In this document: piece by piece, positions 22,225 to 33,120 of the stretch
Position numbering within the stretch: the first letter of the stretch is position 1
How the letters are laid out: each line of letters begins with the position of its first letter
Program-made: the position numbers and the translations under genes
Origin: Cytophagaceae bacterium
GTDB taxonomy: Bacteria; Bacteroidota; Bacteroidia; Cytophagales; Flexibacteraceae
Length of the DNA stretch: 39,222 bases
Assembly (NCBI GenBank): GCA_027485575.1
Contig: JAIXQU010000164.1
Span: 1 to 39,222 of the forward strand
Direction of reading: 5' to 3'
The notes under the pieces: generated by a model
Database searches by the model: none
Told to the model about the DNA's origin: nothing
What the model saw: only the letters and a program-made list of their open reading frames with translations

Positions 22225-22244
22225 CTTCATCAAAAAGTTTGTTA

Positions 22245-22550
22245 ATGGAAGTTTCACAATTAATAGAACAAAAAGTAGAGTCCATAGAACCTTCAGCCAA
22301 AGTTGTTTTATTTGGCTCAAGGGCCCGAAAAGACCATTCTGAGCATTCTGACTGGGATATTTTGGTATTGTTGAATCAGCCAAAAGTGACCATTGGTGAT
22401 GAACAAAGAATCAGGCATGGTCTTTTTGAAATAGAATTAGAAAATGGGGTTGCCATTTCAACATTTGTACAATCTCTTTATAATTGGCACAACACTGAGG
22501 CGGCAACACCATTAATTCAAAATATTAAGAAGGAAGGCAGACTTTTATAA
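22245..22550 (+). CDS. MNT-type minimal nucleotidyltransferase (antitoxin candidate)
   Basis: A small nucleotidyltransferase of the MNT group. The active-site signature is VVLFGSRARKDHSEHSDWDI: GSRA followed by the paired acidic residues of SDWD. The length of about 101 aa is typical. MNT proteins paired with HEPN proteins form toxin-antitoxin modules in which the MNT partner can AMPylate and silence the HEPN toxin (MntA/HepT type). The HEPN-like gene follows 8 bp downstream. I chose ATG at 22245 over TTG at 22239 because of the promoter position. Confidence 0.87.
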   Translation: MEVSQLIEQKVESIEPSAKVVLFGSRARKDHSEHSDWDILVLLNQPKVTIGDEQRIRHGLFEIELENGVAISTFVQSLYNWHNTEAATPLIQNIKKEGRLL

Positions 22551-22558
22551 ATTTTGAA

Positions 22559-22936
22559 TTGAAGGACTATGTAACATATCGGTTACAGAAAGCAATGGAG
22601 GCCTATGAGGATGCCATCATTTTGGCAAATCATAACCGATGGAATGCATGTGTAAATAGATTGTATTACGCTTGCTTTTATATGGTTTCTGCTCTGGCAA
22701 TTCAAAATGAGTTTGAAAGCCTCACCCATTCTCGACTGAAAACATTGTTTGCACTTCATTTTATAAAAACAGGAAAGGTTTCCCTTGAATTTGGAAAGTT
22801 ATTTTCAGATTTACTCGATTGAAGGCAAAAGGGGGATTATAACGACCATTTTGATTTTGATAAAGATACGATTGAGCCAATTCTGCCCATGGTCAAATCT
22901 TTTCTGGATCTTTTATTAGAAATGATTGAAAAATAA
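22559..22936 (+). pseudogene. HEPN-domain protein with an in-frame stop
   Basis: The first 87 codons give a HEPN protein, with RLQKAMEAYEDAIILANHN and the family core CVNRLYYACFYMV. A TGA at 22820-22822 ends it, but the same frame goes on for 37 sensible codons (RQKGDYNDHFDFD and LPMVKSFLDLLLEMIEK) to a TAA at 22936. In intact relatives this junction is usually an unbroken SRQKGDY-like helix, so one nonsense change (for example TCA to TGA) is the simplest reading. The start must be TTG at 22559 because no ATG is available. If the module is a toxin-antitoxin pair, the toxin may be inactivated. Confidence 0.75.
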
Positions 22937-23067: not shown

Positions 23068-23406
23068 TTACGCCACAAACCTAACTGTGGCCTGGTCATA
23101 AATCACCTTTCCAAAACTGTCAATTTCGGCTTTGATCCCAGCATGTTCATTGGTATCGTAGTGCAGAACATCCACTTTGTAGGGTAAAGAAATAGCCTCG
23201 TTAAGCACATATTTAATGTGGGCCATGGTGTCAAAATTGATTGCAGAACCTACCAAAGCAAGATCCACATCGCTTCCATCTTTTTGAGTTCCTTTGGCTC
23301 TGGAGCCAAACAATATCACTTTTTCTATTTCAGGATTGAGAGAAAACAATTGCTGCATACGCCAAAGGTATTTTTCGCGTAAACCATATTGGTTTTTCTC
23401 CATCAT
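23068..23406 (-). CDS. MNT-type nucleotidyltransferase of the second module
   Basis: The nucleotidyltransferase motif is VILFGSRAKGTQKDGSDVDL, with the DVLHYDTN strand supplying a further acidic residue. The frame opens earlier (23472), but the ATG at 23404-23406 overlaps the stop of the upstream HEPN gene as ATGA, so translational coupling makes this the likely start (MMEKNQYGLREK, about 112 aa). It is not closely similar to the MNT protein of the + strand module, so the two did not arise by recent duplication. Confidence 0.85.
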   Translation of the reverse strand: MMEKNQYGLREKYLWRMQQLFSLNPEIEKVILFGSRAKGTQKDGSDVDLALVGSAINFDTMAHIKYVLNEAISLPYKVDVLHYDTNEHAGIKAEIDSFGKVIYDQATVRFVA

Positions 23407-23801
23407 TTGAGATCTTGGAACTGCCGTTTGAACTGGCTCAACATGGGGTAAAACTGATTTCTTATTTTCCATTCTCCTTCTTTTGCCAGGGTTTCATTAT
23501 AAGTGTGCGCAAGGGAATTGCGACTTTCTAAAGCAGAAATCCATAATTCCGAATCGGCTTCATTCAATAATCTGATTTCTTTTGCCGCAAAAATAACAGA
23601 CCGTGGTGAACCTAAAGTCGGATATTTTTCAATGTCTTCCACATAGTCTTTGATTACTTTCCAGGAAAGTTTAAATGCCAGTTCATACAGTTTGATGGTT
23701 CCTGCAAGTTCTACAAACCGCATTTGCTTAATTGTCAAGACTCGCTCAAGCTCTAAAAATGCACTATTAAAGTTCTCAAATCTTTGCTCCCATCGGTTCA
23801 T
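23403..23801 (-). CDS. HI0074-like nucleotidyltransferase substrate-binding (HEPN) protein
   Basis: An all-helical HEPN protein of the NTase-substrate-binding family (HI0074-like), with WEQRFENFNSAFLELE, ELAFKLSWKVIKDYVE and the HEPN motif ALESRNSLAHTYNE, whose R-x4-H (RNSLAH) is the RNase motif of active HEPN toxins. I placed the start at ATG 23801 (MNRWEQRF), because the frame further upstream lacks family similarity and a -7 box lies just before it. It overlaps the downstream MNT gene by 4 bp (ATGA). Confidence 0.85.
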   Translation of the reverse strand: MNRWEQRFENFNSAFLELERVLTIKQMRFVELAGTIKLYELAFKLSWKVIKDYVEDIEKYPTLGSPRSVIFAAKEIRLLNEADSELWISALESRNSLAHTYNETLAKEGEWKIRNQFYPMLSQFKRQFQDLK

Positions 23802-23806
23802 ACGAA

Positions 23807-23814
23807 CAAAGATA
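23807..23814 (-). promoter_or_regulatory. Promoter -7 box TATCTTTG for the second HEPN/MNT module
   Basis: On the minus strand TATCTTTG ends 5 bp before the ATG at 23801. If it is used, the transcript starts at or next to the start codon, so the mRNA would be nearly leaderless. No clear -33 element was found. Confidence 0.5.
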
Positions 23815-23918
23815 TTGCAAAAGTGAATCTGTCCATCACTAATAAACATTTGGGATTTATTCATTCTTAGCAAACAATACAAATGCATTATTTCACAACC
23901 GGATTCAAACCAAAAAAA

Positions 23919-25802
23919 CTACGAACTCTTATAAGCAACCTCGTGATAGGTCTTGATATGTGGCCCCATAAAAACCCTGGCAAAAACCCGGATGATGGAA
24001 AGTCCATCCACCACAAAACACATGGAGACAAAAAAGGCCAGCACAAACTGATCTTCATGAATGTGGGTGTAGAGTAAATCTTCACCTATAAAAGTAGGGG
24101 TAATGGGAAAACCTGTAAGACCCAGACAGGCAATGAGAAATAGTAAGGCTTTTGCAGGATACTCATACACATGGCCATGAAATTGAGACAGGTCGATTTC
24201 GGGTTCTTTGAATTTGACGCGTTTCAAAATACCATAACCCAAAGCGCCACTTACCACAATGCCGCTCAGGTAAATGTAGAGTTGGTTGTAGTCAAAATCG
24301 GCATTCATTCCAATGGCGAGGGCTATCCAGAAATGGCTCATCACAATGAGCAACCAGGTATAAATGATGCTTTTTCGTTCGGCAAAAGATTTCATCACCA
24401 TCATAAATCCAATCATGGCAAAGGTGACAGGTAAATACGCCTTTAATTTATAATGCAACAGGTCTTTGTTGTAAAGCAAATAAAGCGCCACCATATAGGT
24501 AGGAACGAAAAAGTAATACACATTTTTCTCATTCAAAAAGGTGAGCTTTCGAGCCAGCCTTTTAATTGGATTCCAAATGGTTTCGTACATAAATGCATCC
24601 AGATTCCACTCTTTCAGGCATAGTATATAGAGCGTGTTTCTTAAAAAAAAAAAAAAAAACCGGTCTTCCAAACTTTTAAGATGCGGTGAGTAATTGTAAA
24701 ACTGCTCTCTAATCAGGTAACTGACAACAGATGGAGAAACTAAAAGTTGATAAGTCCTTAAAAATGCATTTCCAGCAAAGTGATACAAGGCCAACAATTC
24801 AAAACCGCAGGCTACTTCTATGAAAATAATGCCTATCTGGGCAATTGAAGCATATGCAATCTGGCTTTTAATGGAGGATTGAACCCTGGAAATTCCCGAG
24901 GCAATAATCATAGTTGAAAAGCCAAGAAGGGCAATCAAAACCCTGACAACAAACTGATGTTCCCAGAAAGTATAGGTACGCAACAAAAGAAAAACCCCCA
25001 TGTGCACCGACAGCGAACCGTAAAAAATGGCGCTGGATGGCGTGGGGCCTTCCATGGCTCTGGGCAGCCAGGACGAAAATGGCAATTGGGCAGATTTGGC
25101 AGCGGCCGCAATCAAAATCATAATGGAAATGAAAATACCCACCCAACTGTGGTGCTCCAGGTGAAAAGACACGAGCACGTAGTTGTTCATTTTGTAAAAT
25201 GAAATATTTTCCATCCACAAATAGTGGCTCATCCACATGGCAAGCAGCAATCCAATATCTCCAATCCGATAAATGGAAAAGACCTTAATGGCATTTTTAA
25301 CCGGAAGAAATCTATCTCTGTAAAAGGCAATCAACAGAAAAGATGAAATACCCAGAATTTCCCAGCCTATAAAAAGAGTTTCAAAATTGCCTGAGAAAAC
25401 GGTGATGGTATAACCAAAATAAAAGAATAAAATGGTGTTGAAAAATCGTTTGTAACCTTGCTCCCTATGTAAATAATAGCGGCTGTAAACAACGACCATA
25501 AAGCTCAGGGTAGAACCCACCAGAAAATATGCAGCGGTTATTTTATCAAAATAAAAGTCGATAAAGAACTGATATTCTTCATTTTCATAAATGGTAATGT
25601 CCTTTAAATTCAGATTGGGGTGATTGCTGAAAAGCCAATACATCACAAAGGGAATTCCAAAAAGCATCTGGATGCCAATGGTTGCGGTGGCTACATGAGA
25701 AAGCGTTTTCTCCTTCCCATCTTTCACCAAAAGGCTTACTAAAAAGCCCACTAGCGGAATAAAAACGAAAAAGTGAAGAATGCTGTTTAAGGTGAAGTTC
25801 AT
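23919..25802 (-). CDS. dabB: DabB: proton-channel-like membrane subunit of an inorganic-carbon transporter
   Basis: Related to NuoL/MrpA proton-translocating subunits. The TM5 glutamate is in LFIGWEILGISSFLL (Glu148), and the TM7/TM8 signature is AAKSAQLPFSSWLPRAMEGP followed by TPSSA and SVHMG. About 14 hydrophobic segments are visible in 627 aa. Directly after dabA, the family identity is DabB, the cation-coupling partner in DAB complexes that drive bicarbonate/CO2 accumulation. One oddity is a 17-base homopolymer (24643-24659 on the + strand) encoding five Phe and a Leu at residues 382-387; a slip of one base would truncate the protein. The gap to dabA is 21 bp. Confidence 0.88.
   Translation of the reverse strand: MNFTLNSILHFFVFIPLVGFLVSLLVKDGKEKTLSHVATATIGIQMLFGIPFVMYWLFSNHPNLNLKDITIYENEEYQFFIDFYFDKITAAYFLVGSTLSFMVVVYSRYYLHREQGYKRFFNTILFFYFGYTITVFSGNFETLFIGWEILGISSFLLIAFYRDRFLPVKNAIKVFSIYRIGDIGLLLAMWMSHYLWMENISFYKMNNYVLVSFHLEHHSWVGIFISIMILIAAAAKSAQLPFSSWLPRAMEGPTPSSAIFYGSLSVHMGVFLLLRTYTFWEHQFVVRVLIALLGFSTMIIASGISRVQSSIKSQIAYASIAQIGIIFIEVACGFELLALYHFAGNAFLRTYQLLVSPSVVSYLIREQFYNYSPHLKSLEDRFFFFFLRNTLYILCLKEWNLDAFMYETIWNPIKRLARKLTFLNEKNVYYFFVPTYMVALYLLYNKDLLHYKLKAYLPVTFAMIGFMMVMKSFAERKSIIYTWLLIVMSHFWIALAIGMNADFDYNQLYIYLSGIVVSGALGYGILKRVKFKEPEIDLSQFHGHVYEYPAKALLFLIACLGLTGFPITPTFIGEDLLYTHIHEDQFVLAFFVSMCFVVDGLSIIRVFARVFMGPHIKTYHEVAYKSS
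24643..24659. repeat. A17 homopolymer (T17 in the sense strand) inside dabB
   Basis: Seventeen consecutive A on the + strand, read as TTT codons in dabB, keep the frame exactly as given. No other coding sequence in this window holds a run this long. Such runs are prone to replication slippage and to sequencing error. Confidence 0.9.
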
Positions 25803-25823
25803 AATTGAGAATCCTTGGATGCT

Positions 25824-28331
25824 TTAAATTTTGTCCAGTAAAAAGACCGGGAAATTTTCTTCGTGAGATTCCACCAACTTGTCAATATTGGAAACATGTG
25901 GAAGGTCATTGTTTACAGTTTTATAGGGATGAAATTCTAAATTATGAAAATGGAAAGTTTCCCTGGTTTCGGGATGAACCGCCACCAAAACCACCCATTC
26001 ATTGGCAAACCACTCGAATGTCGCCGGATTCCGACGGATAACATCTGCCACCAGTTCCGGAAAATGCTCTACAACCATCAGAAGCCGGACCGGGTCGTGT
26101 ACTTCTATCATTTGGCTGGGTAAACCTGGCCGCAAATCACCGTCTATTCCATTTGCCACACCGATAAGGCCCATTATATTATGGGGCAATTTGGTTCCTG
26201 CACCAAGTTTCTGATTGTCAACCCTCGAAAAATAATATTCCAGATTGATGCCGCCACAAACAGGCGCAGCCGCATTGAGAATATTGAGTAAATATTTTCC
26301 TTCGGGGTCAATGCTGTAATCATAGGAATTCAGAAAAGAACGCCTGTCAAGAAAAATACCCTTGGAAAGAGCCCTTCTACCCACAATACACATGGCATTT
26401 GTGGCGTGGTTTAGCTCTGGTCGTGGCTCAAAAAGAGAAACTGAACGTACCAATATCTGCTCATGAATTTTTGCCGGACTCAGTTTTGAATTGATGGAAT
26501 CAAATCTTCGGGAACGCTCTTTTGCATTGTAATCCAAGGTTTTGGCAAATGTCATTTCATTTTTTATGTGCAATTCCTGATTGGCTTTGAACAAAGTCTC
26601 AACATCAAAAAATACGATTTCATCCCTTGTGGTGTCTCGAATTGCGCCAACAAACTGCGTATCAGCTGGTATCTCAATTCCCTTTTCTTTCAATATTGAC
26701 CTGACCATGGTATTATTGGCCATGTTGCTAAATACCCTCGCATTTACTGAGCCCGCCCTTCCGCTGCAAGCCCCGCAGTCATAGGCTGCATAATGGGGAT
26801 TGTTTACAGAACTTGCGCCATGTCCAACCATATAAACGATTGGTGCAAAGTCTTTTACAAGGCCGATACTGCGTAAAACATTTTCAACCCGAAATGCCAT
26901 TTCCTCCAGATTAAACCCCAATTGCAAGTCATTCTCTTTGTGTTCCGGATTTTTATTTTCAATAATAAGTGTAGAGTTTTTATCCATGTGCTTCAGCGAA
27001 GAAGCAGTGGCCGGACTCATGCTGGGCTTAAAAATGTTTATGAGAAGCTTGAAAGCCGTCCAGAAACCAATGGTTTGGGTGACAAACCAACCGGAAAAGA
27101 AGTTTTGATTTTTCTTTGAAAAGGTAATGTCAGTTTCCAGTTTTGTGCGAACGCCAACTTCTTTGATGAGGTATTTTGGCGTCATTGGGGCTGGGCAAAC
27201 CTTGGTATAAAATTTCCCGCCTTGTGGTTGGAAATAAAATTCTACACCAAAAAAACCAGGAGTTCCATAGGTTTCAGCATTGGGTTCAAATCGCTCAATG
27301 TATCTTCTGATTGAACATTCCCTATCGTCAATGCAAAAAACGGCCTGAAATGCTTTGGATTCTATTTTTGGCATTTTCACCTTTTCAAGCTGAATGCCAG
27401 CTAAAACCTGGTCGTAAAAACTCCACTCAAAGGCCTTTTGCCAAAGGGAAAGAACAGTATCCAGTTCTGTGATTTCCCTTTTTTCAAACAGGGGTTTCGG
27501 CCTGACTTTTACGCCTTCATTGAGTGGTTTCCATTTTCCATTGAGTCGGATTTCCAGCGTATCAATTTCCAGCAAAAGCTCAAAAATGATAAAATCTTTA
27601 AGACTTATCTTTTTGGGAATGAGCAAGGTTTGGGGAAAATCTTCAACCGTTGAAACCATGCCGGACCAACCCTGGTGTGCAAATTGCTGGTCAAAAATAT
27701 ATTGTTCAAAAAGCGTAGGGTCGCCAACCAACATATTGAGCAATAGCGAAATACCCGTAGATTCATCCTCCAGAAGTTCTTTTGCCTTTTTCGAATCAAA
27801 AAAACTGGAATAACTGTTTTTCTCCAGGTTCCTGATGGAGGCCAAAAAGCCCTTGCCACTGGTCGGAAAATCCCAAATGGAAATGCCCTGGTCGAGATAG
27901 CTTCCAATAATCCGGAATAGCTTTGGCTGAATAAAGGACTCCAAATCTATGTTGAAATGGGTTTTCCAATAAGAGCGCAAAACTCCGATTTTGGGTTCCA
28001 CATTTTCATTATATTCTTTATTGAGCAATCGGTCAAGCCAAATATCCTTTTCTTCTATTCCTTGATTTTCAATAATTACCCGCTCGGTAACCGCAGGGTT
28101 GATTCTACCTGATTGGTACTTTTGTCTATATTCTTTAATATTTAAATAAGTCCTGTAACCGAAAGTATCAGACGCATCTTTTAGCGCCTCAAAAAAGGTT
28201 TCCTTTTGAAAAGCATGTAAAGAATTGTGATGAATAAAATCCTTTAATGGTGCCTGGGCTGGCAGGTAATGTTTTAGTTCGTGGATGAGGTGGTGCTCAT
28301 CAAAAAATCTGATAGAATCGCTCATTTCCAA
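25824..28331 (-). CDS. dabA: DabA: carbonic-anhydrase-like subunit of an inorganic-carbon transporter (DUF2309)
   Basis: Large cytoplasmic, membrane-associated partner of DabB. Its zinc site resembles a beta-carbonic anhydrase. The four expected ligand and catalytic residues are visible: Cys333 and Asp335 in VFCIDDREC, His504 in VGHGASSVNN, and Cys519 in AYDCGACSGRAG, with the His-Cys spacing of 15 as in characterised DabA. The N-terminal HHLIHELKHYLP and FIHHNSLHAF are family-typical. The length of 835 aa is normal. DAB complexes are thought to hydrate CO2 unidirectionally and so trap bicarbonate inside the cell. It sits between a SulP gene (54 bp upstream) and dabB (21 bp downstream). Confidence 0.93.
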   Translation of the reverse strand: MEMSDSIRFFDEHHLIHELKHYLPAQAPLKDFIHHNSLHAFQKETFFEALKDASDTFGYRTYLNIKEYRQKYQSGRINPAVTERVIIENQGIEEKDIWLDRLLNKEYNENVEPKIGVLRSYWKTHFNIDLESFIQPKLFRIIGSYLDQGISIWDFPTSGKGFLASIRNLEKNSYSSFFDSKKAKELLEDESTGISLLLNMLVGDPTLFEQYIFDQQFAHQGWSGMVSTVEDFPQTLLIPKKISLKDFIIFELLLEIDTLEIRLNGKWKPLNEGVKVRPKPLFEKREITELDTVLSLWQKAFEWSFYDQVLAGIQLEKVKMPKIESKAFQAVFCIDDRECSIRRYIERFEPNAETYGTPGFFGVEFYFQPQGGKFYTKVCPAPMTPKYLIKEVGVRTKLETDITFSKKNQNFFSGWFVTQTIGFWTAFKLLINIFKPSMSPATASSLKHMDKNSTLIIENKNPEHKENDLQLGFNLEEMAFRVENVLRSIGLVKDFAPIVYMVGHGASSVNNPHYAAYDCGACSGRAGSVNARVFSNMANNTMVRSILKEKGIEIPADTQFVGAIRDTTRDEIVFFDVETLFKANQELHIKNEMTFAKTLDYNAKERSRRFDSINSKLSPAKIHEQILVRSVSLFEPRPELNHATNAMCIVGRRALSKGIFLDRRSFLNSYDYSIDPEGKYLLNILNAAAPVCGGINLEYYFSRVDNQKLGAGTKLPHNIMGLIGVANGIDGDLRPGLPSQMIEVHDPVRLLMVVEHFPELVADVIRRNPATFEWFANEWVVLVAVHPETRETFHFHNLEFHPYKTVNNDLPHVSNIDKLVESHEENFPVFLLDKI

Positions 28332-28385
28332 TCTGTTAGAATTTTTTAAATTAAAACCCTTTAGTTTTAGGTTGAAATTCCCACA

Positions 28386-29978
28386 TCAAACCTGAACTCT
28401 TTTTCTGGTGGCCATGGTATGGTCAGAAAAGGTCTCATGATTTTCCAGCCCAATCATTTTTATGGTACCACCTGAAGCCCTATATTCCTGCTTAAACTGA
28501 TGAATACTTTCCATCACATTGTGGTCAACTAAAGTAGTTTTGGAGAAATCTATAGTTACGTTCATTTTTAATGGAATAGCCTCCAACCTACTTTTTATTC
28601 CCAGGAAATTGGTGAAGATGGCTGCTTTTTCTACGGTCAGAATATAATCTTTCCCATTAAAAGAAACGCTTGCCTGAGCAGTAAACAAAGACCGAAGTGG
28701 GGCTCCATGATACAAATGAATGAGAATTTTCAAAAGGATTCCAGCACCAATTCCAACCAAAAGGTCTTCGTATAAGGTGAAGAAAATGGTGATTAGAAAT
28801 ACAGCCAATTGCTCCTTACCGATTTTAAAAATATGAAAAAACTCTTTTGGGTGAGCGAGTTTGATTCCAACTGTAATTAACATAGCTGCCAAAGCAGTAT
28901 TTGGAATCAACTCAATAAGCGATGCAGCCAGAAGCAAAAAAGAAAGCAAAAAGAAGCCATGAAAGAAATTCGCCCATCTGGTTTTGGCACCATTGGCCAC
29001 ATTTGCCGAACTACGGGCTACTTCAGAAATCATTGGCAATCCACCTAAAATGGCAGCAATTGTATTTCCTATTCCAATAGCTATCAGGTCTTTATTTGCA
29101 TTGGATTTTTGTTTTAAGGGGTCAATCATATCAATGGCCTTAACTGTTAACAAACTTTCAAGGGTGCCTACCAAAGCAAACATGATTACATATTTGATAA
29201 ATGTCCCAGTTTGATAGATTCCTGAAAAGTCCACGTTGACTTTCAGATTGTCAACCAAATTTCCAATATGAACCAAGGCGTATTTTGGCTCAGTGCTATC
29301 AAATTTTAATAACAGTTCAGCTGGAATGGCCACCAGCAAAACAACCAATGGAGCAGGAATTTTTTTCAGAAACTCCACCTTTATATCACTCCAACCCATC
29401 ATAATCCAAAGACTGATAACACCAATTAAACTTGCCTTTGGGTCAAGATTCTGTAGAAATGCAGGTATAGCCATAAACAAACCAAATGGCGATTTACCTT
29501 TTGCAAGAGCTGGGTCAACATCAAGTAAAACAGGGATTTGTTTAAGAATAATGATCATTCCTATGGCTGCCAGCATGCCATGCACCGCAGAAAGCGGAAA
29601 AAAATCGACCAGACGGCCAAGCTTAAAAACGCCAAACAAAATCTGAATTAAGCCTGCTGCAACCATCGCCCCCAACGCCAAATGCCAGCCAGTTTCGCCT
29701 CCTCCAAATTCGGAAACCGCCCCTACAACGATGACAATCAAACCAGCCGCAGGACCTTTAATGGTGAGTTTGGAGCCAGCAAAAAAGCTAACCACCAAAC
29801 CACCGATTATGGCCGTTACCAAACCCATTAAGGGTGGAAACTCAGATGCTTTTGCTATACCCAAGCTTAATGGAAGTGCCAGCAGGAATACAATAAATCC
29901 TGAAATGGCATCAGATGAAAAATTTTCTTTTAGTCCTGCCAATCCGTCTTTTGGCTGGCTATTTATTTGATGACTCAT
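28386..29978 (-). CDS. SulP-family anion transporter with STAS domain
   Basis: SLC26/SulP transporter of 530 aa. Ten or more hydrophobic segments are followed by a C-terminal STAS-like region (about residues 440-530) containing MNVTIDFSKTTLVDHNVMES. Family motifs include SGFIVFLLALPLSLGIAKAS and GGLPMISEVARSSANVANGA. SulP members carry sulfate, bicarbonate (BicA), molybdate or dicarboxylates. As first gene of an operon with dabA and dabB, bicarbonate is the likely substrate, but sequence alone does not prove it. The other possibility is that it exports or exchanges another anion. Confidence 0.9.
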   Translation of the reverse strand: MSHQINSQPKDGLAGLKENFSSDAISGFIVFLLALPLSLGIAKASEFPPLMGLVTAIIGGLVVSFFAGSKLTIKGPAAGLIVIVVGAVSEFGGGETGWHLALGAMVAAGLIQILFGVFKLGRLVDFFPLSAVHGMLAAIGMIIILKQIPVLLDVDPALAKGKSPFGLFMAIPAFLQNLDPKASLIGVISLWIMMGWSDIKVEFLKKIPAPLVVLLVAIPAELLLKFDSTEPKYALVHIGNLVDNLKVNVDFSGIYQTGTFIKYVIMFALVGTLESLLTVKAIDMIDPLKQKSNANKDLIAIGIGNTIAAILGGLPMISEVARSSANVANGAKTRWANFFHGFFLLSFLLLAASLIELIPNTALAAMLITVGIKLAHPKEFFHIFKIGKEQLAVFLITIFFTLYEDLLVGIGAGILLKILIHLYHGAPLRSLFTAQASVSFNGKDYILTVEKAAIFTNFLGIKSRLEAIPLKMNVTIDFSKTTLVDHNVMESIHQFKQEYRASGGTIKMIGLENHETFSDHTMATRKRVQV

Positions 29979-30084: not shown

Positions 30085-30414
30085 TCAAATGATGAGTTTT
30101 TGGTACAATAATAGGAGGTTGATATTCGGACGAATCAACCCATATAGTTTTTTCTCAAATTCAAAGCTTATTGATGAATTCCATTTAAAAACATCATTTA
30201 AAAATAAGGAAGGTAGATTTTTAACCTGGAAATCACTTTCTCCTTCGCAGTCTTCAAGGTTTTCGATAAATACAGGAGCTTCAAAAAGATTGATGCTTCC
30301 CGCTTCCTTTTTTTTACTGGAAAAGGATTTTATACTTTTATTATTTTCAGAACTTTGGTCTGGGAATCCTAAAAGATTGCAGAACAGAAAGATTAATATA
30401 AATATAAAAGGCAT
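30085..30414 (-). CDS. Small exported hypothetical protein
   Basis: 109 aa with a strongly hydrophobic N-terminus (MPFIFILIFLFCNLLGFPDQ) like a signal peptide or membrane anchor, then a Ser/Lys/Glu-rich stretch and a short C-terminal region. No family recognised. An opposite-strand frame of equal length (30089-30421) competes; I prefer this one because it has a plausible export signal and a -7 box 18 bp upstream (TATCTTTG, 30432-30439). The cysteine at residue 12 is not in a good lipobox. Confidence 0.5.
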   Translation of the reverse strand: MPFIFILIFLFCNLLGFPDQSSENNKSIKSFSSKKKEAGSINLFEAPVFIENLEDCEGESDFQVKNLPSLFLNDVFKWNSSISFEFEKKLYGLIRPNINLLLLYQKLII

Positions 30415-30563: not shown

Positions 30564-31682
30564 CTAATCCTTGTAAATAAAATAGTTATTTGGTTTTTTC
30601 TGCAGGTTTTTTAATAGTTTTTCTTTGTCAGAAACCTTGTTTAATGCAGAATTTTTATTCAACATTTCTATCAGAATTTTTTGATAAGTAACCTCCCCAC
30701 CATGGAAGCCATCCATAGTTTCATTGTCATTCGAACCACATTTTGAAACAGTAGAAAAATCATAAAACTCAAAATTATATTGGGTCATAATTTGATTGAG
30801 CCGAATTGGGAGATTTTCCAGGTATTTATAGTTTCCGGAACTGTCCATATGGTCATATACCTTATCAGCGAAGGGTGGTAAAAATCCTATAACATTGATT
30901 TTGTGCTGATTGCAAAAAGACATAAGCTCAACCAGCTTTTCAAATGCTTTTTCATTTGTCTCTTGTCCATATTCAAATCTTTGTTTTCCTTTTTTTATTC
31001 TATCAAAAGTGTTTGAATACTTAAAATCGTTGGCTGTTGAATCGGCATTCATCAATTTTGAGATTTGACCGCCATAAAAAATACTTCCATCATTTCTAAA
31101 TCCTGTATTGTGAAAGTTGGCATTAATTCCAATTCTGTTCTTTGCAGATAAGGTAAAAAAGCGGAAAGGGTCTTCCTTGAAAATCTCACTGATGAATTGT
31201 TTGTACACGTCCGCTTTGGGTAAAAATGTAAAGCTATTTTTCCAATGATTTTCAGGAAGTTCGGTTTGTAGATTGTCCCAATTTGCATTAAACATCCAAT
31301 GGTCCAGACCTATAATCAGATAATGAGGATATTTCTCCTTTGGAATGCTTTTCAAAAAAGGGAGAAAATCATTGACACTGGAAATGGTAAAACCTGCGTT
31401 ATAAAAGCTTGAATCAAACATTTCTTCCCTGAAAGACAAGACCCGTGAAGAGCCAAGTGCCAAGGTAGAATACCTTGGGGCAGATTGAATATTTTTCCAT
31501 TTGATATAGCCGTAGTTATTTTCATTGTAGGCGAATCCGACAAGATCAGGTGATTTATTTTCAATCTCTTTATCGAGAGAATGAAAGTTTTCCCTGGCAT
31601 TCCAAAGCAGGTAGGAGGGAACCCCAATCAACACAATTATGGGTAAGAAGAAGGAGAAAAGGAGGATGAGAAATTTATTCAT
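30564..31682 (-). CDS. SGNH/AlgX-like protein, partner of the MBOAT acyltransferase
   Basis: An N-terminal membrane anchor or signal (FLILLFSFFLPIIVLIGVPS) is followed by a SGNH-type extracytoplasmic domain. The GDS-like block is LALGSSRVLSFREE (Ser near residue 78), and the C-terminal D-x-x-H block is MDGFHGGEVTYQK. These residues form the catalytic triad in AlgX/AlgJ-type O-acetyltransferases. Its start lies 1 bp after the MBOAT stop, so the two are translationally linked. It probably transfers the acyl group, delivered across the membrane by the MBOAT partner, to a polysaccharide. Polymer unknown. Confidence 0.75.
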   Translation of the reverse strand: MNKFLILLFSFFLPIIVLIGVPSYLLWNARENFHSLDKEIENKSPDLVGFAYNENNYGYIKWKNIQSAPRYSTLALGSSRVLSFREEMFDSSFYNAGFTISSVNDFLPFLKSIPKEKYPHYLIIGLDHWMFNANWDNLQTELPENHWKNSFTFLPKADVYKQFISEIFKEDPFRFFTLSAKNRIGINANFHNTGFRNDGSIFYGGQISKLMNADSTANDFKYSNTFDRIKKGKQRFEYGQETNEKAFEKLVELMSFCNQHKINVIGFLPPFADKVYDHMDSSGNYKYLENLPIRLNQIMTQYNFEFYDFSTVSKCGSNDNETMDGFHGGEVTYQKILIEMLNKNSALNKVSDKEKLLKNLQKKPNNYFIYKD

Positions 31683-31683
31683 A

Positions 31684-33120
31684 TCAGAATTGAAAATATA
31701 TGAATTGTTCTTCTGCTCCCGAATTATATAAGATGGTGAAAACCAAAAGATAATAAAAGCCCCATCGGATGGGTTTGGCTAGTTTTTTACCAACTGTGGC
31801 TATTGCAAATTGATTTTCTCTTCCGAGCCATTCGACCCAAATGAAAAATAAAATGTAGAGAAAGAGGGTTTTGGGTAGAATCTGAGGCATTGAAAATAAG
31901 CTCTTTGTGAAAATGCCGGATATGAAGTGGAATGCATGGTTTATATTCTCTGACCTGAAAAAGATCCAGGCGAAGACTGTTAATCCAAAAGTGAGGCAAA
32001 TGGAGGCGAATTCTTTTAGTCCAGGCAGCAATTTTCCTTTTGCTACAATTTCAAGGTTATTCCTGTTTGTATTTAAAATAATGGAAGGCATAATAAACAG
32101 GGCATTCAGAAAACCCCAAACAATAAAAGTCCAGTTGGCTCCATGCCAAAATCCGCTCACAAGAAAAATGATAAAAGTATTCCTGACTTTCATCCATGTT
32201 CCACCTTTGCTTCCTCCGAGTGGAATATACAAGTAGTCTCTAAACCAAGTAGATAATGAAATGTGCCAACGTCGCCAGAATTCGGCAATGTCTCTGGAAA
32301 AATAGGGAAAGGCAAAATTTCGCAATAATTCAATCCCAAAAAGGCGGGCAGTACCTAGCGCTATATCGGAATAGCCTGAGAAGTCACCATAGATTTGAAA
32401 ACTAAAAAACAAGGCCCCAAGTAGCAATGTGCTTCCAGAATAACCATCCGAATTATTAAAGATAAGATTGGCATGTCCGGCACATTGGTCTGCGATGACT
32501 ACTTTTTTGAATAGTCCCCATAGAATTTGCCTTAAGCCATCAACAGCCTTAGAAAAATCAAATGTTCTTTCTTTTTGGATTTGCGGAAGCAAGTGAGTTG
32601 CTCTCTCAATGGGGCCAGCCACCAGAAGTGGAAAAAAACTCACGAAAACCGAATAGTCGATGAAGTTCTTTTCGGCTTTTATTCTATCGTAATAAATATC
32701 AATCACATACGAAAGACCATGGAATGTATAAAATGAAATTCCGACGGGTAATATTACTTTTAAAGTCCAAGGGTTAACCTGCAAGCCAAGTGAAGAAATG
32801 GCCTCAGCAAAAGAGGTGGCAAAAAAGTTGTAATATTTAAAAACACCTAAAAAACCTAAATTCACCAATATACTCAGCCAAAACCAGAACTTTTTTTCCT
32901 TTTGGTTGGGTGCTTCGGCCATTTTCAATCCCGTAAAATAGTCGAGGAGTGTAGAGAATATGAGCAGGAACAAAAACCGCCAATCCCAACATGCATAAAA
33001 AAAATAGCTGGAGACAAGAAGAAGTAAATTTTGACCTTTCAGACTTTTTTTTGTCCAGAACCAATACAGTCCAAAAACTATTGGCAGAAAAACAGCAAAG
33101 CTAAAAGAGTTAAAAAGCAT
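31684..33120 (-). CDS. MBOAT-family O-acyltransferase (AlgI/DltB-like)
   Basis: Polytopic membrane protein of 478 aa. Family blocks are LPVGISFYTFHGLSYVIDIY, LVAGPIERATHLLPQ, FRDYLYIPLGGSKGG and the catalytic-histidine motif SGFWHGANWTF. At least ten hydrophobic segments are visible. It moves acetyl or other acyl groups from a cytoplasmic donor to the outer side of the inner membrane. The SGNH gene follows directly. No glycosyltransferase or polymerase genes adjoin, so the acceptor polymer must be encoded elsewhere. A TAAATTTG box at 33230-33237 (minus strand) might be the promoter, leaving a ~110-nt leader. Confidence 0.92.
   Translation of the reverse strand: MLFNSFSFAVFLPIVFGLYWFWTKKSLKGQNLLLLVSSYFFYACWDWRFLFLLIFSTLLDYFTGLKMAEAPNQKEKKFWFWLSILVNLGFLGVFKYYNFFATSFAEAISSLGLQVNPWTLKVILPVGISFYTFHGLSYVIDIYYDRIKAEKNFIDYSVFVSFFPLLVAGPIERATHLLPQIQKERTFDFSKAVDGLRQILWGLFKKVVIADQCAGHANLIFNNSDGYSGSTLLLGALFFSFQIYGDFSGYSDIALGTARLFGIELLRNFAFPYFSRDIAEFWRRWHISLSTWFRDYLYIPLGGSKGGTWMKVRNTFIIFLVSGFWHGANWTFIVWGFLNALFIMPSIILNTNRNNLEIVAKGKLLPGLKEFASICLTFGLTVFAWIFFRSENINHAFHFISGIFTKSLFSMPQILPKTLFLYILFFIWVEWLGRENQFAIATVGKKLAKPIRWGFYYLLVFTILYNSGAEEQFIYFQF

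Follow-up and report, generated by a model that had tools for sequence, protein, structure and literature searches.

A probable inorganic-carbon uptake operon with a SulP transporter and a DAB pair of a separate branch in a Cytophagaceae bacterium

Introduction

The closest described relative of the system treated here is DAB2 of Halothiobacillus neapolitanus, for which a mechanism has been established in which the membrane subunit DabB drives the zinc protein DabA. According to the excerpts available of the 2026 structural report (PMC13144422), the zinc ligands and an Asp-Arg dyad are essential in DAB2, and its one-way hydration of CO2 is attributed to three features: the hydrophobic Leu658 of DabA, where beta-carbonic anhydrases have Gln or His, Glu444 in a finger of DabA, and the loss of a NuoL glutamate in DabB, where Ile151 stands at the place of NuoL Glu144. 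In non-autotrophs, DAB and MpsAB have been proposed to feed anaplerotic carboxylation (excerpt of PMC6689103), and SulP-type transporters of dissolved inorganic carbon have been reviewed (excerpt of PMC10880623). A literature search with noisy results found no paper on a SulP-DAB operon among the matches listed. Here, we analyzed a 39,222-nucleotide (nt) stretch of DNA from a Cytophagaceae bacterium (contig JAIXQU010000164.1), hereafter the window, which is one entire contig of a 3.9 Mb assembly. We report that it carries a gene for a SulP transporter followed by dabA and dabB, which we read as a real and conserved operon of a separate DAB branch, predicted to handle inorganic carbon.

Results

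The sequence-only reading had proposed a three-gene operon in which SulP precedes dabA and dabB with short spacing. All three genes are present where it placed them, on the minus strand, which it left unstated, and the gaps are 54 nt between SulP and dabA and 21 nt between dabA and dabB. It overlooked a fourth gene, which encodes a small exported protein and ends 106 nt ahead of SulP (Table 1). The match of DabA to PF10070 spans all 747 model positions, and the adjacent gene encodes the PF00361 protein DabB, as in the DAB/DAC family; the transporter scores above the curated cut-off of the SulP family, PF00916. A chance occurrence of the operon is excluded because the family matches are full-length and the synteny is recurrent. 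The dabA start codon is TTG, with a possible alternative ATG two codons in, at 28325. Around the operon, neither a Bacteroidota promoter pattern nor terminators were in excess compared with shuffled sequences, and the RNA fold of the interval between the small gene and SulP was unremarkable (z -1.23).

To place the window pair among its relatives, we use the names type I and type II, coined in this analysis. A set of 59 genomes, the source genome included, contained DabA in 18. The type I copies of this set (n = 6, from Bacteroidota) have a DabA 24-27% identical to that of the window, the order dabB-dabA and, where complete, a DabB of 527-561 residues. The type II copies aligned have a DabA 48-70% identical to it, the order dabA-dabB and a DabB of 622-651 residues. 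A scan of genome contigs gave at least 572 type II-like relatives, mostly from Bacteroidota, of which the best 80 were taken as type II loci; these loci are mutually related and not independent. Residues were compared in 47 type II and 13 type I DabA, the latter being six from Bacteroidota and seven plasmid-borne copies from Alphaproteobacteria, Gammaproteobacteria and Haloarchaea, and in 58 type II and 12 type I DabB. Of the departures from DAB2 described below, this canonical set (13 DabA and 12 DabB) shares with type II only the missing finger glutamate, in 6 of 13. By sequence, the DAB of the window belongs to a separate branch and is not of the characterized DAB2 type.

DabA aligned with H. 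neapolitanus DabA2 (9rd0_A) at E = 9.6e-61. The four metal and catalytic residues named by the sequence-only reading are indeed kept, with His504 and Cys519 15 residues apart, and each aligns with its DabA2 counterpart (Table 1). Arg337 aligns with R355 of DabA2, and the arginine is invariant in all type II and type I proteins compared; the Cys2His zinc site and the Asp-Arg dyad of the DAB/DAC family are thus both present. The top structural matches of the DabA AlphaFold2 model were beta-carbonic anhydrases (beta-CAs), the nearest being CsoSCA (Z 9.2, 322 residues, root-mean-square deviation (rmsd) 4.6), consistent with the beta-CA-like core of the family. Around this shared centre, the two branches differ. 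The place of DabA2 Leu658 holds His in all 47 type II proteins, in an alignment free of gaps, and Leu in all 13 of type I as well as in H. neapolitanus. The place of Ser356 holds Glu in 43 of 47 type II proteins and Ser in 13/13 of type I. The finger position of Glu444 is acidic in none of the 47 type II proteins (Gln in 38, His in 6, Phe in 2 and Ile in 1). In type I it is Glu in the seven plasmid-borne copies and Ser in the six from Bacteroidota, and we therefore rejected Glu444 as a universal mark of DAB. In the window, Gln419 occupies this place in the multiple alignment; an earlier assignment to Lys428 from a first alignment was dropped, K428 matching a conserved K/R position.

The AlphaFold2 model of DabB (mean predicted local distance difference test score 87.5) is NuoL-like, with Z up to 46.8, and its residues 5-421 superpose on residues 1-561 of E. 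coli NuoL with an rmsd of 3.0 over 409 residues. In this model, the position of residues 371-421 suggests a counterpart of the C-terminal element of NuoL, with the order of elements changed. The DAB2 entry 9rd0 was missing among the 50 rows from VIA-align (library to 2026-04-08), which has no bearing on the folds. The claim that DabB keeps the key Glu and Lys of proton-channel subunits was borne out, NuoL E144 being matched by Glu148 and K229 by Lys236. The glutamate is, however, a departure from canonical DabB (Table 1). At the places of NuoL H254, H338 and K342, type II DabB has Tyr (58/58), Asn (57/58) and Arg (57, with one gap), whereas type I has His, His and Lys (12/12 each).

Type II DabB has further C-terminal segments. 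A profile of residues 530-620 matched the transmembrane helices (TM) 12-13 of antiporter-like subunits in all 33 of its PDB matches at E <= 1, the matched proteins being subunits of complex I, Mrp or related complexes. The best E was 3e-8 and ten matches had E <= 1e-4, while the best match of the ND5/NuoL type had E 0.11. Glu574, which aligns with E407 of NuoM, is conserved in 48 of the 58 type II proteins, and Asp575 in 57. The same profile retrieved none of the 12 type I DabB (E 0.14 or worse). For the preceding segment, residues 384-535, a profile search of PDB sequences gave nothing meaningful, the best match (E 2.4) being unrelated.

SulP, of which the window protein is the sole PF00916 match in the source genome, falls short of two subfamily cut-offs. 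It scored 132.9 bits with the BicA model NF050096 (cut-off 880) and 181.7 bits with the sulfate permease model TIGR00815 (cut-off 380.45). Its highest NCBIfam scores, about 182 bits each, came from the general sulP model and from the DauA model, and both lie below cut-off. Glu274 sits where BicA (6ki1) has Asp, and is Glu in all eight sequences of the alignment used.

We found a strong linkage of SulP to type II DAB. In 46 of the 80 loci, the visible flanks of dabAB extended for at least 5 kb on the upstream side and 4 kb on the downstream side. With SulP called at more than 60 bits, 33 of these 46 well-flanked loci had a SulP within 2.5 kb and 34 within 5 kb. SulP was downstream in 19, upstream in 8, divergent in 4 and on both sides in 2. 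Across the 59 genomes, SulP lay within 5 kb of 8 of 13 type II dabA matches (one of the 13 shortened) and of none of the six type I copies from Bacteroidota, two of which have cut flanks. At the seven plasmid-borne type I loci, no SulP was annotated within 4 kb, in a gene table that is incomplete.

In a midpoint-rooted tree of 71 SulPs, which carries a long-branch warning, 61 fell into one clade (support 100/100) containing most of the DAB-linked SulPs, along with four unlinked SulPs of genomes with type II DAB. Some of the ten SulPs outside the clade are beside or fused to a beta-CA. DAB-adjacent SulPs outside the main clade were found at L056 (a second copy), L112 (two), L113 and L116. At L113 (3964-6981), SulP is followed by a beta-CA gene (142.9 bits) and a gene for a membrane protein judged TerC-like by eye, and then by dabA-dabB. 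Of the 98 near-full-length SulPs in the 59 genomes, short fragments being excluded, 22 are fused to a beta-CA or lie within 3 kb of one. For the SulPs of 730-748 residues, the idea that their C-terminal extension contains a carbonic anhydrase domain was rejected, as the extension had no Pfam match.

The small exported protein consists of a hydrophobic N-terminal segment, an acidic middle and a conserved C-terminal end that reaches the stop codon. No Pfam or NCBIfam model matched the members scanned, apart from sub-threshold noise. Similar small open reading frames (ORFs) lie ahead of dabA or SulP in related loci. We built a profile from 19 seeds selected by position and C-terminal pattern, so that only non-seed matches test position. 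Run on the 6,642 ORFs contained in the window and 106 loci, it found 29 more ORFs at E <= 0.01, of which 28 preceded dabA or SulP on the same strand by no more than 700 nt, compared with a background of 338 of 6,623 (5.1%) for all ORFs. With the window left out of the profile, the window ORF was recovered among the same 6,642 ORFs at E = 5.3e-4 and 2.5e-4; the best reversed-sequence control had E 0.08 for the first profile and 0.01 for a later one. The protein was found in 31 of the 46 well-flanked loci and in two copies in nine loci, and where SulP and dabA diverge, one copy lies ahead of each unit. Its ratio of nonsynonymous to synonymous substitution rates was about 0.14-0.28 in three pairs with a measurable synonymous rate. 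The last 15 residues were 87-93% identical and the rest 42-90%, although the end was not the more conserved part in one of five pairs. The source genome has one convincing copy only, in a search whose alignment includes the window sequence.

Three matches lie away from DAB and SulP. One of the copies (L049:14500-14874, plus strand) precedes an ORF judged TolC-like by eye, and another (L065:6279-6686, minus strand) a group of ORFs likewise judged hydrogenase-4/complex I-like. The family is therefore not confined to carbon uptake, and may accompany several ion-transport operons.

Genes from one of three further families adjoin 36 of the 53 DAB-clade SulPs with at least 900 nt visible downstream; the families were discovered in the same loci that were later used for counting. 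The first is a 450-residue porin-like family whose best NCBIfam match is ExtI (53.7 bits, cut-off 150). The other two, a DUF2490 family and a family of 255-residue proteins, are by our own reading of their sequences putative outer-membrane barrels. The window operon has none of the three, while a genome of the same genus (L035) has one.

The claim that no carbon-fixation gene accompanies the operon was extended to the whole source genome, in which we found no match to the RuBisCO large chain, PEP carboxylase, alpha-CA or beta-CA. The genome has one SulP, one DabA, one pyruvate carboxylase-like ORF of 1147 residues and four YrdA-like gamma-CA homologues at E <= 0.001, of which two are strong matches and the others weak. 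With a pyruvate carboxylase-like ORF but no RuBisCO, the suggested supply of bicarbonate to anaplerotic carboxylases is therefore plausible, while PEP carboxylase, also offered as a sink, has no gene here.

Several relatives of the window DAB stand out. A metagenome-assembled genome labelled Planctomycetota carries a second, divergent DAB pair head-to-head with its type II pair (L081:1578-6284, minus strand), with a DabA 33% identical and His at the Leu658 place. In Azotobacter chroococcum, a dabA-dabB-SulP stretch of the type II branch (L102:544-6636) has 60.7% GC and the remaining locus 69.7%, which suggests acquisition by horizontal transfer. The closest DabA among the best 80 (77% identity over its best segment, with the sequence divided between two ORFs) is on a contig labelled Phycisphaerales (L120) with a window-like 38.6% GC, probably a mis-binned Bacteroidota contig. 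In a genome of the same genus as the source (G001; L041 and L122), dabA is reduced to an ORF of 141 residues beside an intact SulP, and an ORF of 766 residues on another of its contigs matches both SulP and beta-CA. Plasmid copies of type II were considered and rejected: none of the 123 matching records reached 60% identity, and the 20 on the list were 25.5-28.6% identical.

Downstream of dabB, two nucleotidyltransferase modules face each other, one combining NTP_transf_2 with HEPN and one NTase_sub_bind (HI0074) with Polbeta; the Polbeta module scored 42.8 bits with the MntA antitoxin model, below the cut-off of 60. The modules are probable toxin-antitoxin-like pairs. Immediately upstream of the operon and on the same strand lie an MBOAT gene, DltB-like below cut-off, and a DltD-like gene.

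Table 1 Genes, residues and segments of the operon and its neighbors, by position in the window.
Feature	Position	Strand	Details
SulP gene	28386-29978	minus	530 residues; PF00916 220.5 bits (cut-off 23.2)
dabA	25824-28331	minus	835 residues; PF10070 720 bits (cut-off 25)
dabB	23919-25802	minus	627 residues; PF00361 137.4 bits, PF00662 36.9 bits
Small exported protein gene	30085-30414	minus	109 residues; no named family
dabA Cys333, zinc ligand (DabA2 C351)	27333-27335	minus	47/47 type II, 13/13 type I
dabA Asp335 (DabA2 D353)	27327-27329	minus	47/47 type II, 13/13 type I
dabA His504, zinc ligand (DabA2 H524)	26820-26822	minus	47/47 type II, 13/13 type I
dabA Cys519, zinc ligand (DabA2 C539)	26775-26777	minus	47/47 type II, 13/13 type I
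dabA His642 (DabA2 Leu658 place)	26406-26408	minus	His in 47/47 type II
dabB Glu148 (NuoL E144; DabB2 Ile151)	25359-25361	minus	Glu in 58/58 type II, 0/12 type I
dabB residues 384-535, between NuoL-like TM1-11 and TM12-13	24198-24653	minus	no meaningful PDB match
dabB residues 530-620, TM12-13-like, with Glu574-Asp575 (24078-24083)	23943-24215	minus	profile matches TM12-13 of antiporter-like subunits
Nucleotidyltransferase module	22239-22822	plus	
Nucleotidyltransferase module	23068-23888	minus	
MBOAT and DltD-like genes	30564-33120	minus	

Discussion

The genes, their residues, their synteny and the similarity of their folds are established here. They make it likely that the four genes form an inorganic-carbon uptake operon with a type II DAB. 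The best reading of the pair itself is probably a DAB-type system converting CO2 to bicarbonate, because neither the zinc ligands nor the Asp-Arg pair is altered. The inorganic-carbon system proposed by the sequence-only reading stands in this respect, carried by the catalytic residues of DabA, its beta-CA-like model, the SulP linkage and the other SulPs that lie beside or are fused to a beta-CA, but the locus belongs to a distinct branch and is not an ordinary DAB.

From these data we infer the substrates, the direction of transport, the coupling ion, complex formation and the physiological sink. SulP would bring in bicarbonate. DabB, as a NuoL/NuoM-like membrane subunit, would conduct protons (or Na+) inward, and by homology with DAB2 the change induced by this ion flow would drive the zinc centre of DabA to convert CO2 into bicarbonate, which would be trapped in the cytoplasm. 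Together, SulP and DAB could acquire both HCO3- and CO2 and retrieve leaking CO2, with carboxylases such as pyruvate carboxylase as the users of the captured carbon. At the place of DAB2 Leu658, DabA would present a beta-CA-like histidine, and the TM12 acid of DabB itself (Glu574-Asp575) may substitute for the glutamate of the DabA finger. The small exported protein may serve the operon as an accessory component or as a regulator.

Several observations weigh against this reading. Proton-path residues essential in DAB2 are altered, two histidines to Tyr261 and Asn345 and a lysine to Arg349. SulP scores far under the BicA model and has Glu rather than Asp at a BicA ion-site position. At the 60-bit cut, no SulP was called in the 5 kb around dabAB at 12 of the 46 well-flanked loci, of which at least L075 has a weaker one. 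A role of DAB as the sole converter of CO2 and bicarbonate is weakened by the gamma-CA-like matches. The idea that type II DAB replaces beta-CA was rejected, as the two showed no anticorrelation in the 59 genomes: of the 12 genomes with an intact type II DAB, 6 lacked beta-CA, as did 17 of the 41 that have no DAB.

We think it unlikely that the pair is an ordinary DAB2-like system whose residue differences are neutral drift. The catalytic ligands are identical, and excerpts of the structural report state that DAB2 with L658Q still allows growth (PMC13144422), as drift would allow. The branches nevertheless hold opposite fixed states at the positions of His642, Glu148 and Tyr261, and the TM12-13 segment is confined to type II.

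It also seems rather unlikely that SulP acts as a permease for sulfate or another anion and is merely co-located with dabAB, which would then handle inorganic carbon alone. Being the only SulP of its genome and scoring best with the general sulP and DauA models would suit such a permease, as would the alignment of Glu274 with a glutamate that has a role in H+ coupling in a plant sulfate transporter. The linkage to type II DAB is, however, recurrent and variously ordered, other SulPs are linked or fused to beta-CA, and the linked SulPs fall mostly into one clade.

Improbable, lastly, is an operon serving chiefly pH or ion homeostasis, with DabB as a proton or sodium channel, SulP as a bicarbonate/anion exchanger and DabA as a cytoplasmic buffer: DabB keeps Glu148, Lys236, Lys312 and the TM12 acid, a larger number of antiporter-like residues than DabB2 has, and finds in MpsAB a homologue proposed to be sodium-linked (excerpt of PMC13144422), but the invariant zinc site points to CO2 catalysis.

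Beyond the inorganic-carbon uptake operon that we favor, a doubtful but conceivable extension is that type II DAB forms a separate mechanistic class. DabA, keeping in His642 a working transition-state residue of the beta-CA type, may then hydrate CO2 without a membrane potential. DabB might hold a complete NuoM-like set of two half-channels (Glu148, Lys236, Lys312 and Glu574-Asp575), with a proton path bypassing the DabA finger. The pair might form the cytoplasmic end of an envelope-spanning module of outer-membrane barrel, small exported protein, SulP and DAB, in which the small protein, with its strongest conservation in the final residues before the stop codon, may be a nascent-chain or periplasmic regulator.

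Type II as a whole shows the reverse of DAB2 at all three features and so amounts to a natural experiment. Should it prove energy-coupled all the same, the Leu658, Glu444 and Ile151 features would not be the cause of one-way pumping. In heterotrophic Bacteroidota, the branch further links DAB with SulP, with a putative outer-membrane barrel and with an unnamed small exported protein, and it offers a concrete candidate for a bicarbonate transporter outside cyanobacteria.

Among known systems, DAB2 (PDB 9rd0) shares with the window the PF10070 and PF00361 pair, the Cys2His zinc site with the Asp-Arg dyad, the beta-CA-like core and the NuoL-like membrane subunit. It differs in gene order, dabB-dabA against dabA-dabB with SulP in the window. 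Where DAB2 has Leu658, Ile151 and the finger Glu444, the window has His642, Glu148 and, with Gln419, no finger glutamate. DabB2 has H260, H343 and K347 at the places of Tyr261, Asn345 and Arg349, and the window DabB has in addition an extra segment and a TM12-13 of its own. MpsAB of Staphylococcus aureus, likened here by its description, has the same two families in a non-autotroph; unlike in the window, a SulP partner is not mentioned in the excerpt of that source (PMC6689103). BicA and the SulP-carbonic anhydrase fusions likewise tie the SulP family to inorganic carbon (excerpt of PMC10880623). Compared with the fusions, the window SulP has no carbonic anhydrase domain, and most DAB-linked SulPs are in another clade. 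The subunits NuoL, NuoM, NuoN and MrpD of complex I and Mrp resemble DabB in TM1-11, in Glu148, Lys236 and Lys312, and in a TM12-13 segment that carries an acidic residue where NuoM has E407. In DabB, however, this segment lies about 180 residues past TM11 and not immediately after it, and DabB, unlike these subunits, is paired with a carbonic-anhydrase-like partner.

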